Source of the DNA: Minisyncoccota bacterium
GTDB lineage: Bacteria; Patescibacteriota; Minisyncoccia; JAHIHE01; JAGLIN01
NCBI GenBank assembly: GCA_023142995.1
Contig: JAGLIM010000041.1
Span: forward strand, 1 to 40,872
Reading direction: 5' to 3'
DNA length: 40,872 nucleotides
Position 1 is the stretch's first letter. Each line of letters begins with the position of its first letter. This document shows, in pieces, positions 1,379 through 16,866 of this stretch. The notes under the pieces are model-generated. The model was not told the origin of the DNA. It ran no database searches and worked only from the letters and a program-made list of their open reading frames with translations. The position numbers were made by a program, and so were the translations under genes.

Positions 1379-2416
1379 TTAAAGATCTTTATAATACACA
1401 ATTGATATTACATTAGAAATTAACATAAAAAATATTAAAAATATTGATTTAATGTATAAATCATTTTTTATTATTTTAGTATTTGCTCTATTAGATAACC
1501 CTTGATCTCCAGAGTAAGTATCTCCTGCTAAAGCTTTATTAATAAAAATTATATTTTTAGATCCTACTAAATTATCTTCTGTTTTAATTTTACTATTTGA
1601 ATAATAGTTAGCTCTCATATTAAATACAAAACTAGTATCATTTTTTGGAATAATTCCCAACGCAGTATAAACTGTGTTTTCTATTTCGCAAACACCATTT
1701 AGATCAATTTCGGTTAAAAGTTCATTTTCACTAACACGATCTAAATTGCCTTCCTCTGTATCTAATTCTTCTCCTGGTCTCTGTCGAATATCTATTTTGA
1801 TATTTTTTTCTTCTATGTTCGTCTTTACTAACTCATTATTGATCTCATCCACCTTTTCTATGGTCTCAGTATCTGATTCTTTCGCAATAACAACAGAGAC
1901 TTTCTCTTTGATAAATAGAGACCCAAACTCCTCCACAATAATAATACTACTGCCATTTTTAAACTTTCCTTCAAGCACTGCAACACCGATCTCTGTATAT
2001 TTTACATTTAAAATATTCTTTCTATGAGATGAACTTTCCATTAAAGCCTTATGTGCGCTATGTGCTGTAATAAAATCTATTGCCAAATTTTCCCCTGCAA
2101 ATTTATATTCATATCCAGCAGACTTTATAAAATCCCAAGGAGTAAGTCCTTGAGGGCTATTATGATCAAAATATTGATTCTGGAACATATCATTTACTTT
2201 CGCCGTTGCAGCCTGAGTTAATTTATCATTTATAATAAGTGGATCAAGACCAGCCTCAACTCTTGATCTATTAGTTAGATCGATCACTTCTTGGACTTCT
2301 ATTGCTCTGCAAACAACTGTATGCGTAAAATTAATTTGAGCTAACACAAAAAATACAACTATAAGAAATCTAGCTTTGGTCTTATTTATATTTTTGTTTT
2401 TTGTTTTTAACTTCAT
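1379..2416 (-). CDS. CAP/SCP-domain secreted protein (YkwD-like)
   Basis: 345 aa. An N-terminal hydrophobic segment (about residues 15-36) serves as signal or anchor. A CAP domain follows at about 42-170, with the family motifs LTNRSRVEAGLDPL, FDHNSPQG, AGENLA and SSSHRKNIL. Residues about 175-300 are a low-complexity acidic linker. A second hydrophobic stretch (SIFLIFFMLISNV) lies at the C-terminus, so the CAP domain is probably held outside the cytoplasmic membrane. Bacterial CAP proteins of this type are common in Gram-positive-like envelopes, but their biochemical role is not settled. The spacing to the DUF2341 gene downstream is short. Family assignment is firm; function is not known. 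Confidence 0.85.
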   Translation of the reverse strand: MKLKTKNKNINKTKARFLIVVFFVLAQINFTHTVVCRAIEVQEVIDLTNRSRVEAGLDPLIINDKLTQAATAKVNDMFQNQYFDHNSPQGLTPWDFIKSAGYEYKFAGENLAIDFITAHSAHKALMESSSHRKNILNVKYTEIGVAVLEGKFKNGSSIIIVEEFGSLFIKEKVSVVIAKESDTETIEKVDEINNELVKTNIEEKNIKIDIRQRPGEELDTEEGNLDRVSENELLTEIDLNGVCEIENTVYTALGIIPKNDTSFVFNMRANYYSNSKIKTEDNLVGSKNIIFINKALAGDTYSGDQGLSNRANTKIIKNDLYIKSIFLIFFMLISNVISIVYYKDL

Positions 2417-5785: not shown

Positions 5786-5846
5786 AATATTCTTCGACCT
5801 TGCTCCGAAGCCATACACACAAAGCTCTTTATAAAACTATTATAAT
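5786..5846. repeat. family A palindrome, copy 3 (right arm decayed)
   Basis: The left arm AATATTCTTCGACCTTGCTC is intact; the right arm is decayed (AAAGCTCTTTATAAAAC). Its end overlaps the tsaD stop codon at 5840-5842. Confidence 0.7.
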
Positions 5847-6913
5847 CTCAAATTCGCATCTGCTTTTATGCTTTTCCAATCTTTGATCCCCTTGTCGGCT
5901 TTAATATGTTTATACGCCGCAATAGCAATCATTAAAGCATTGTCAGTAGTCAGCTTTGACAGTGGAAAAGAAAAACCGCAAAATGGTAAATTTGATCTGA
6001 TCGCTTTTTTTAATGATCTTTGCAATTTTTTATTTGCTGAAACTCCTCCTCCTAAAACAATATTTTTTGCTTTATATTTTTGAGCTGCTTTTATGGTTTT
6101 AAAGATCAGTACATCAAAAGCAGCTTTTTGAAAAGATGCTGCCACATCTTGCTTGTACCTACTATCTATCTTTTTTCTAGAATTTACTTCGTATAAGACT
6201 GCTGTTTTTAATCCTGAGAAACTAAAATTATAATCATTACTGTCTATCATTGGTCGAGGAAATTTAATTTTTTCTTCATCTCCTTTTTTTGCCATTTTCT
6301 CAATAATAGGACCGCCAGGATAGCCTAATTTCAAAAGCTTAGCGATCTTATCAAATGCCTCTCCAACAGCATCATCTAGAGTTTCTCCTATAACCTTATA
6401 ATTCAAATCTTTTTTCATAAGAATGATTTGAGTATGTCCTCCAGATACTGTAAGACAAATAATCGGAAACTCTACTTTCCAAAGTTTAAAATAATTTTTG
6501 ACTTTATGAACTTTATGAACTTTTGACTTTATGGACTCTTTAAGCCAATTTGCATATATATGGCCTTCAATATGATGTATCCCAATTAAAGGCTTTTGGA
6601 GTCCATAAGCAAGAGTTTTTGCCGCTCCAGTACCAACCATCAGCGCAGGGATAAGCCCTGGACCATTAGTTATAGCAATATAATCAATTTTATTCTTACT
6701 TATTTTTGCATTTGCTAAAGATCTTTGTAAAACTGGAATTATATTTTTCAAATGCATTCTTGATGCCAAAGATGGAACAACTCCACCAAATTTACTATGC
6801 ATTTTTACTTGAGATGAAACTATATTTGCCAGCACCTTAGCATTTCCTCTCTTAAATTCAACAATAGCAACTGCTGTTTCATCACAAGAAGTTTCAATAG
6901 AAAGAATAATCAT
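5840..6913 (-). CDS. tsaD: tRNA N6-adenosine threonylcarbamoyltransferase TsaD
   Basis: 357 aa, near the normal length of about 340. Motifs in order: LSIETSCDETAVAIV (ASKHA phosphate loop), GGVVPSLASRMH, NGPGLIPAL, the metal-binding HHIEGH (residues 113-118), SGGHTQI, DDAVGEAFDK, GYPGGP, NFSFSGLKTA, GGGVSANK and TDNALMIA. TsaD transfers the threonylcarbamoyl group to A37 of ANN-decoding tRNAs, working with TsaB and TsaE. Residues about 126-146 (KSKVHKVHKVKNYFKLWKVE) are an extra loop coded by a tandem ACTTTATGA micro-repeat at about 6495-6535, placed between the metal site and SGGHTQI. A degraded family A repeat supplies the 3' end. Confidence 0.96.
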   Translation of the reverse strand: MIILSIETSCDETAVAIVEFKRGNAKVLANIVSSQVKMHSKFGGVVPSLASRMHLKNIIPVLQRSLANAKISKNKIDYIAITNGPGLIPALMVGTGAAKTLAYGLQKPLIGIHHIEGHIYANWLKESIKSKVHKVHKVKNYFKLWKVEFPIICLTVSGGHTQIILMKKDLNYKVIGETLDDAVGEAFDKIAKLLKLGYPGGPIIEKMAKKGDEEKIKFPRPMIDSNDYNFSFSGLKTAVLYEVNSRKKIDSRYKQDVAASFQKAAFDVLIFKTIKAAQKYKAKNIVLGGGVSANKKLQRSLKKAIRSNLPFCGFSFPLSKLTTDNALMIAIAAYKHIKADKGIKDWKSIKADANLRL

Positions 6914-7039
6914 AAAACTATTTTAATATTTTGATATACTAACATCTTAACAATACAACATATCTTACCTCTTTACAAATATATAATATATGATAATGTG
7001 TAACTTATAGTATATAATGTAATTAGTCATAAGAAACAA

Positions 7040-7133
7040 GGTTATTAGCAGTAGGAATAGTCATAAGGTTTAAGTTATAAGTTTATTCTTAAACTAATGA
7101 CTTACAACTAATGACCAGTCTTACTGCCAATGA
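7040..7133. repeat. long imperfect inverted repeat upstream of the tRNA/GIY-YIG locus
   Basis: GTTATTAGCAGTAGGAATAG... (7040-7074) pairs imperfectly with ...CCAGTCTTACTGCCAATGAC (7088-7133), including GTTTAAG against CTTAAAC near the centre. The 346-bp gap between tsaD and the GIY-YIG gene holds this palindrome, then the truncated tRNA-Glu copy; no protein gene is seen. Confidence 0.6.
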
Positions 7134-7152
7134 CTTAGTTACCAAAATTTCT

Positions 7153-7223
7153 GGCCCCTTCGTCTAGTGGTTAGGACATCAGGTTTTTCCGCCTTTGGCG
7201 GATCCGCTGTAAGCGGACATCCT
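7153..7223 (+). pseudogene. truncated tRNA-Glu duplicate interrupted in the anticodon loop
   Basis: 7150-7187 is identical to 7522-7559 of the intact tRNA-Glu locus (acceptor strand, D arm, and anticodon stem up to TTTT of the loop). A 30-bp double hairpin (7188-7217) follows, then CATCCT (7218-7223), which again matches the intact gene (7560-7565). After that the match stops: the 3' anticodon stem end, T arm and acceptor 3' strand are absent. It cannot make a tRNA. Confidence 0.9.
7188..7217. repeat. 30-bp double-hairpin insertion in the tRNA copy
   Basis: Two short palindromes in tandem, CCGCC-TTT-GGCGG and TCCGCT-GTA-AGCGGA, placed exactly between TTTT and CATCCT of the duplicated anticodon loop. 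It resembles the GC-rich palindrome inside the FemX gene. Confidence 0.8.
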
Positions 7224-7260
7224 ACAGTACGTAGTATAAATATGATTTAACAAGACTACA

Positions 7261-7518
7261 ATGTTCTATGTTTATCTATTACAAAGTATTAAAGATAAAG
7301 GAACTTATATAGGCTATACTTCTGATTTGAAAAAAAGATTTAAAGAACATAATCAAGGAAAGACAAAATCAATAAAACATAGAATTCCATTTATTCTTAT
7401 TTATTATGAAGCTTATTTAAATAAAACCGACGCCAGAAAAAGAGAATTAAATTTAAAAAATAATGGACAAAATAGAAATATTTTAAAAGAAAAAATTAAA
7501 AATTCATTAAACAGTTAG
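7261..7518 (+). CDS. small GIY-YIG endonuclease-domain protein (UPF0213/YhbQ-like)
   Basis: 85 aa, the standard size of stand-alone GIY-YIG proteins. Motifs: FYVYLLQS (GIY-equivalent strand), GTYIGYTSDLKKRFKEHN (YIG strand, catalytic-type Arg and the EHN segment), IPFILIYYEAY (metal-site Glu region) and ARKRELNLK. The fold cuts DNA; the biological substrate of this small subfamily is not established. The gene sits between the truncated and the intact copy of tRNA-Glu, so it is bracketed by 38-44 bp direct repeats, and it starts 37 nt after the broken tRNA copy ends. No Shine-Dalgarno is obvious. The context suggests the gene and the partial tRNA arrived together in one insertion. Confidence 0.9.
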   Translation: MFYVYLLQSIKDKGTYIGYTSDLKKRFKEHNQGKTKSIKHRIPFILIYYEAYLNKTDARKRELNLKNNGQNRNILKEKIKNSLNS

Positions 7519-7524
7519 TTATCT

Positions 7525-7596
7525 GGCCCCTTCGTCTAGTGGTTAGGACATCAGGTTTTCATCCTGAAAACAGGGGTTCAATTCCCCTAGGGGCTA
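7525..7596 (+). tRNA. tRNA-Glu (UUC)
   Basis: A full cloverleaf can be drawn: acceptor GGCCCCT with AGGGGCT (first pair G-U), D arm GTCTAGTGGTTAGGAC, anticodon stem TCAGG/CCTGA with loop TTTTCAT (anticodon TTC), T arm AGGGG-TTCAATT-CCCCT, discriminator A. CCA is not encoded. The G1-U72 pair is worth noting. A strong terminator follows directly. Confidence 0.95.
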
Positions 7597-7601
7597 CAAA
7601 C

Positions 7602-7632
7602 AAAATAATCCTTTTTAAAAAGGATTATTTTT
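7602..7632 (+). terminator. terminator after tRNA-Glu
   Basis: AAAATAATCCTTTTT is followed directly by its inverse AAAAAGGATTATTTTT. It is symmetrical enough to serve tRNA-Glu on the plus strand and the NadM-like gene (stop at 7658) on the minus strand. Confidence 0.85.
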
Positions 7633-7657
7633 TATATATCAATTAATATTAGCCCTT

Positions 7658-16465: not shown

Positions 16466-16590
16466 CGTCATCCTGAGTGTAGTGATAGCGAAGTGAAGGA
16501 TCCCGAAGCTAATATCACAAGATTTTATACTACAGTTCTGCGCGCATAGACTCGGGATTCTTCACTCCCTATGGTCATTCAGAATGACGA
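16466..16590. repeat. palindromic dispersed repeat, family B copy 1
   Basis: It opens CGTCATCCTGAGTG and closes CATTCAGAATGACG, with inner arms GGATCCCGAAG and GACTCGGGATTC. It shares GTTCTGCRCGCATAGAYTCG plus GGATT with copy 2 in the same orientation. Degenerate pieces of the same motif continue to the left (16386-16460). It overlaps the last codons and stop of the GIY-YIG gene. Confidence 0.8.
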
Positions 16591-16866
16591 TAAATCTTTA
16601 AACTCAAAATTTCCAGACTTAATCAATTCCATTTTCTTTTTTCTTGTCCATCCTTTTATTTTCTTTTCAGCCGTTATTGCTTCAATAGCGGTGTTGAATT
16701 CTTGAAAATATATTAATTTTTCAATATTATATTTTGATGTAAAACCTTTTATCAACTTATTTTTATGTTCATACATTCTTCTATTTAAATCATTTGTGAT
16801 CCCTGTATATAAAACAGTATTCCTTTTATTAGTCACAATATAAACATAACAATGTTTTTGGTTCAT
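16579..16866 (-). CDS. GIY-YIG endonuclease-domain protein (second copy, different subfamily)
   Basis: 95 aa. Motifs: HCYVYIVTNKRNTVLYTGIT (GIY and YIG strands), NDLNRRMYEHKNK (catalytic Arg), GFTSKYNIEKLIYFQEFNTA (active-site Glu) and AEKKIKGWTRKKKMELI. It belongs to the group with a GWTRKKK tail and is only distantly similar to the protein at 7261. The stop codon and last residues (LSSF) are coded by the repeat at 16466-16590, and another copy of the same repeat lies just upstream at 16881. The gene is therefore a cassette between two direct repeats. It probably acts on DNA; target unknown. Confidence 0.9.
   Translation of the reverse strand: MNQKHCYVYIVTNKRNTVLYTGITNDLNRRMYEHKNKLIKGFTSKYNIEKLIYFQEFNTAIEAITAEKKIKGWTRKKKMELIKSGNFEFKDLSSF

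Follow-up and report, generated by a model that had tools for sequence, protein, structure and literature searches.

A minimal GIY-YIG nuclease gene beside a rebuilt tRNA-Glu gene: a probable homing-like cassette of bacterial tRNA loci

How does a small nuclease gene come to lie between a broken and an intact copy of the same tRNA gene? The question is raised by a 40,872-nucleotide contig of a Minisyncoccota bacterium (JAGLIM010000041.1), the whole of which is called the window here. Comparison of the window with itself shows that positions 7150-7187 of the forward strand (TCTGGCCCCTTCGTCTAGTGGTTAGGACATCAGGTTTT) are identical in 38 of 38 bases to positions 7522-7559, which hold the 5′ part of a tRNA-Glu. 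In this relic the tRNA is interrupted between the second and third anticodon bases by two abutting 15-nt hairpins, TCCGCCTTTGGCGGA at 7188-7202 (TCCGCC-TTT-GGCGGA) and TCCGCTGTAAGCGGA at 7203-7217 (TCCGC-TGTAA-GCGGA), after which it resumes as CATCCT at 7218-7223. A GIY-YIG nuclease gene encoding 85 aa follows on the same strand (7261-7518) and leads into an intact tRNA-Glu(TTC) at 7525-7597, the sole intact one called by ARAGORN and Rfam. The sequence-only reading had described the 38-bp repeat, the 30-bp double hairpin, the resumption at CATCCT, and the gene between the copies, and it was right to the base. An interrupted tRNA-Glu of this type was present in 2 of 384 genomes of the class (the source genome and G015), and the hairpin motif had no match in 100 shuffled windows, so the arrangement is not a product of chance.

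We rejected a group I intron, as an intact tRNA is present and Rfam returned no intron match, and no known RNA except tRNA, between 6900 and 7700. An island integrated at the tRNA by a tyrosine recombinase was likewise rejected, as the GIY-YIG gene is the only ORF between the two tRNA copies. Between a conserved promoter-like block and the broken tRNA there is also a long imperfect inverted repeat (7045-7131), and the segment at 7100-7143 resembles a small dispersed repeat, with about nine further genomic matches at 80-94% identity.

The 85-aa protein belongs to the GIY-YIG domain family, as judged by its match to PF01541 (E = 2.8e-16) together with the catalytic Tyr, Tyr, Arg, and Glu; these residues, Y5, Y16, R26, and E62, are invariant in an alignment with its relatives. 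The nearest solved structures by sequence are UPF0213 proteins and SLX1 (PDB 1zg2, 1ywl, and 7cq2). Unlike the tRNA-associated GIY-YIG genes, the UPF0213-like clade in this analysis has no close tRNA neighbours. A second GIY-YIG gene of the window (16579-16866, minus strand) falls in that clade and has no tRNA neighbour. The viral contigs searched yielded no relative of the tRNA-associated family.

Which part of the tRNA-Glu is native can be read from its surroundings. The TsaD gene (5840-6913, minus strand; PF00814, 8.1e-93) is a conserved neighbour of tRNA-Glu and marks the native locus; in 13 relatives the two genes adjoin with no nuclease gene between them. Match coordinates place the tRNA about 150-310 bp from TsaD in the same-family relatives compared. 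In the window the broken copy lies 236 bp from TsaD and the intact tRNA-Glu 611 bp. The promoter-like block CTCTTTACAAAT, at 6969-6980 on the forward strand, was located by alignment with four empty relatives, where it precedes the tRNA-Glu; in the window it precedes the broken copy. On the other side, a terminator-like hairpin with a T run (7604-7634, forward strand) follows the intact tRNA and is shared with the empty relative G003, marking the native 3′ side. From the TsaD distance, the position of CTCTTTACAAAT, and the shared terminator, the broken copy is identified as the native 5′ part. On this sequence comparison, the insert is read as spanning from the broken copy through the nuclease gene and as supplying a new tRNA 5′ part, and the intact tRNA-Glu as composed of a 5′ part from the cassette joined to the native 3′ part. 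The source genome, whose assembly may be incomplete, showed no second tRNA-Glu(UUC), and the rebuilt gene is therefore probably essential. The supplied and native parts are identical in the window, so a foreign origin of the supplied part is not demonstrable there; the two parts do differ at four other loci (L112, L128, L129, and L133) and in a tRNA-Thr relic that lacks a nuclease gene.

The cassette thus occupies a TsaD–tRNA-Glu locus that is uninterrupted in relatives, as expected of a free-standing homing element, and equivalents are found at other tRNA genes. We gathered GIY-YIG relatives from 54 related small-genome bacteria, giving 101 distinct genes. For 26 of these a same-strand tRNA starts between -45 and +60 nt from the stop codon, where 0.28 would be expected at an assumed density of 45 tRNAs per 0.85 Mb. 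A scan of named species genomes, run with a consensus query since the family alignment was too diverse to serve as one, added 79 loci, mostly from Patescibacteria and Bacteroidota. When both collections were combined, 53 loci from Patescibacteria, Bacteroidota, and other groups were adjacent to a tRNA, and 48 of them carried a partial copy of the same tRNA 5′ of the nuclease gene (p <= 0.02 by shuffling), the recurrence that the sequence-only reading had proposed to look for in related genomes. The relic usually begins at tRNA position 1 or a few bases earlier, and relics and tRNAs agree at 1644 of 1725 aligned bases (about 95%). The targets include tRNAs for Glu, Gln, Ser, Leu, Arg, Met, Val, Lys, Thr, Cys, Ala, and Trp. 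In the controls, such a repeat was absent from most tRNA-Glu loci that lack a nuclease gene, and most GIY-YIG genes far from tRNAs have no flanking direct repeat. The window locus is one case of an architecture that is widespread in two large bacterial groups.

Some loci have mirror polarity. Those of Maribacter, Cellulophaga, and Algoriphagus begin with the intact tRNA, continue with the nuclease gene, and end with a 3′ copy of the tRNA, again with hairpins; in most cases this 3′ copy continues into the native 3′ flank. The mirror loci include isolate genomes (Maribacter and Algoriphagus), which makes an assembly artefact unlikely. In Maribacter caenipelagi a second nuclease start after the relic indicates a tandem array; the locus (L151, 1860-2460) reads as tandem tRNA-Arg, terminator, nuclease gene, hairpinned tRNA 3′ part, terminator, and second nuclease start. 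The plan also extends to tmRNA, as at L083, where a tmRNA (1835-2192, minus strand) is followed by a GIY-YIG gene and then by 18 bases that repeat the tmRNA 3′ end. At L073 a GIY-YIG gene lies directly after tmRNA. Rfam analysis of 40 GIY-YIG loci without a close tRNA showed insertions in 16S and 23S rRNA as well as tmRNA neighbours, and in two cases (L074 and L079) the GIY-YIG gene overlaps an rRNA gene.

The type of tRNA is related to the type of nuclease. A tree of 170 proteins, built on a short alignment and with many forks left unresolved, needs 29 changes of tRNA type across its 64 labelled rows; shuffled labels need 44 on average and 39 at least. When labels were shuffled inside the Bacteroidota-like set and inside the rest, the mean was 39 and the minimum 34. 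The 13 rows of the UPF0213-like clade serve as an internal control, having no adjacent tRNA relic. Nuclease clades thus appear to follow tRNA type, which on this poorly resolved tree is indirect evidence for the target specificity of a free-standing homing element.

Taken at the sequence level, the locus is probably a free-standing, intron-less, homing-like cassette composed of a minimal GIY-YIG nuclease and a tRNA part that rebuilds its target, and homing is in our judgement the likely mechanism, ahead of the others considered here. The nuclease would cut a cassette-free tRNA gene, and the break would be repaired from a cassette-bearing copy with the tRNA parts as homology arms. Repair would deliver the cassette and a restored tRNA, and the native part that was displaced would persist as a relic; the stacked relics seen in G015, L222, and Maribacter L151 would come from several such rounds. 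At L222 relics stand on either side of the nuclease gene, which suggests such repeated rounds. Support for a homing-like process comes from tRNA adjacency, remnants of the same tRNA, the mirror class, empty sites, clustering of clades by tRNA, the tmRNA target, intact catalytic residues, and published parallels. Insertion into a tRNA gene with a working tRNA left on one side, as originally suggested, agrees with the empty TsaD–tRNA-Glu loci of the 13 relatives and with recurrence at many tRNA types, isolates included. The original idea of a minimal cassette of nuclease and tRNA part is in line with this recurrence, the empty sites, and the tRNA-type specificity of the nuclease clades. The homing-like reading is weakened by the intact tRNA, which holds the same bases around the supposed target as a cassette-free gene and so should itself be open to cutting, and by the size of the protein, as 85 aa leaves little room for sequence recognition. 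It is also weakened by relics without a nuclease gene and by the many GIY-YIG genes of the family that are not beside a tRNA. Both observations had been named beforehand as grounds for refutation, and each applies in part: GIY-YIG genes do occur elsewhere without a tRNA copy, mainly in other subfamilies, and hairpinned partial tRNAs without the gene occur at a tRNA-Ser of the source genome and in G014 and G015.

These nuclease-less relics bear on the strongest rival. On contig C48 of the source genome (L262, 1420-1608), a tRNA-Ser(GCT) follows a relic whose D-loop region carries a double hairpin, and AAATTAAATAAAT upstream of the tRNA is duplicated too. On contig C8 (L286, 1428-1580), a tRNA-Thr(CGT) follows a relic of its own 5′ part that has no hairpin and differs in the acceptor strand (GCCGTCT against GCCACTC). 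Genome G014 holds a hairpinned tRNA remnant, and in G015 a nuclease-less relic is fused to an apparent remnant of the nuclease C-terminus. Such relics may be deletion derivatives, or duplication may be primary. In the latter case, partial tRNA duplication and hairpin insertion would form a process of their own, through mobile palindromes or slippage, and GIY-YIG genes would settle later in the spacer. The relics at the source-genome tRNA-Ser(GCT) and tRNA-Thr(CGT) and in G014 and G015 favour this account, as do similar palindromes scattered through these genomes: TCCGC(3-8)GCGGA has 17 copies in the source genome against 1 for the control, and by these copy counts its hairpin repeats have the genome-wide dispersal of repetitive hairpin-forming elements. 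The same motif is over-represented in most of the 54 related genomes, for example 82 against 10 in G017. We nevertheless consider a separate duplication process unlikely. The nuclease gene abuts the tRNA on the same side at dozens of loci, the nuclease clade follows tRNA type, relics are present at only 3 of 33 source-genome tRNAs tested, and the fused C-terminus in G015 is what would be expected after loss of the gene.

The hairpins in the relics are a puzzle separate from the cassette itself. Their location in the anticodon loop had been taken as a possible mark of nuclease cutting, a proposal not borne out in this form: the hairpins of other relics number one to three, sit at several loops, and have tRNA sequence on either side. 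Of 49 clean insertions at 37 loci, 44 touch an unpaired position of the cloverleaf; 25.7 would be expected, and none of 20,000 simulations reached this number. When folded, 42 of the 49 are at least half paired. Exact sites recur in relics of Glu (GGTTTT^CATCC), Gln (GGTTTT^GG), Ser (GAGT^GG), Arg (GGATA^GAGC and CAGA^TTTCGG), and Leu (GCGGAA^TTGG and GCAGA^CGC), several of these loci being close relatives and not all independent. In the 160 nt 5′ of tRNA-associated nuclease genes there are 6.8 hairpins per kb, compared with 1.7 per kb in the remaining intergenic DNA of these loci, and 1.0 per kb 5′ of GIY-YIG genes far from tRNAs. The comparison at the tRNA-Glu site covered five double hairpins; 98% of their cells are paired, and they show 13 double-sided changes (0 of 500 shuffles). 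These five sequences may have been inserted separately instead of descending from one structure.

Several roles for the hairpins were considered. They do not mark the insertion boundary, as tRNA sequence runs on past them. Shielding of the relic from re-cutting is a weak explanation, the intact tRNA having the same site and 35 identical 5′ tRNA bases. Nor did RNA folding support the idea that they keep the relic from misfolding the downstream tRNA; the mean acceptor-stem probability was 0.20 with hairpins, 0.17 without, and 0.19 with shuffled inserts. Hairpin insertions in relics are of the same order in number as base differences, which points to a process coupled to the cassette or to selection. 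Hairpins would most likely be gained at relic loops through such a coupled process or through selection against loss of the cassette. Their placement in loops, with pairing kept despite sequence change, suggests palindromes that were inserted according to a folded structure or selected for. A more far-reaching reading, which we put forward only tentatively, is that bacterial tRNA and tmRNA genes host a hitherto unrecognised class of minimal mobile elements. In it a nuclease of ~80 aa would act on the gene folded as a cloverleaf, and its activity or the ensuing repair would plant loop hairpins in the displaced copy and so tie the cassette to an essential gene.

Alternatively, the hairpinned relic could be a functional RNA that works as a decoy, regulator, or guide, either in concert with the nuclease or upon the downstream tRNA. 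The ~95% identity of relics to the tRNA and the loop hairpins that stay paired through sequence change would fit such a role, but relic length and hairpin sites vary widely, the relic lies 3′ of the gene in mirror loci, folding shows no gain for the downstream tRNA, and nuclease-less relics exist; we regard a functional RNA as quite improbable. Bacteria often have tRNA genes in tandem as well as pseudo-tRNAs, but the simple account, in which a tRNA gene was duplicated in tandem and decayed while an unrelated small gene happened to lie between the copies, is scarcely credible and already refuted by the survey, given the 26 adjacent genes and 48 relics reported above across many tRNA types, two phyla, and both polarities.

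A homing-like cassette remains our preferred reading, and it can be set against known systems. In the open-access literature we found nothing on GIY-YIG genes with partial tRNAs or on GIY-YIG genes at tRNA genes of Patescibacteria; such absence is not proof, and the tRNA-gene cassette architecture appears not to have been described before. Patescibacteria and Bacteroidota commonly carry small GIY-YIG genes, which as a rule stay listed as uncharacterised nucleases. The present analysis offers a context for many of them, as parasites of essential tRNA genes for which the price of entry is restoration of the gene, and Maribacter and Algoriphagus provide cultured hosts for homing tests.

SegB is a phage GIY-YIG nuclease encoded beside tRNA genes, with cuts mapped inside tRNA genes, microhomology between the segB 3′ end and the tRNA 5′ end, and no tRNA type favoured (PMC13096335, PMC2988022). 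As far as its published description goes, it resembles the cassette in the adjacency of a GIY-YIG gene to tRNA genes and differs in being a phage protein of phage tRNA arrays, with no hairpinned partial-tRNA relics described in the passages considered. GIY-YIG insertion sequences in CPR rRNA genes, which are sparse and for which homing has been doubted (PMC11270868), involve the same kind of organisms, the same domain, and stable-RNA genes, as do L074 and L079, but that report makes no mention of tRNA. Mitochondrial double-hairpin and repetitive hairpin-forming elements are short single or double hairpins, dispersed in the genome and also present inside RNA genes (PMC2800124), whereas the hairpins here are concentrated at loop positions of tRNA relics beside nuclease cassettes. 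Together with SegB, the closest mechanism is that of the endonuclease (mORF) hybrid genes of fungal mitochondria, known from atp6 of Allomyces and from atp6, atp9, cox2, and nad3 of Glomus, the atp9 case being a GIY-YIG enzyme (PMC3630166). In both systems a free-standing endonuclease ORF comes with a replacement part of its target, the gene is restored, and the displaced native part is left as a relic. The cassettes described here differ in having tRNA and tmRNA genes of bacteria as targets, in the size of the nuclease (~85 aa), in supplying the 5′ part at some loci and the 3′ part at others, and in relics that are interrupted by hairpins. The comparison would extend a mechanism of fungal mitochondria to bacterial tRNA genes and helps to explain partial tRNA genes in small genomes.
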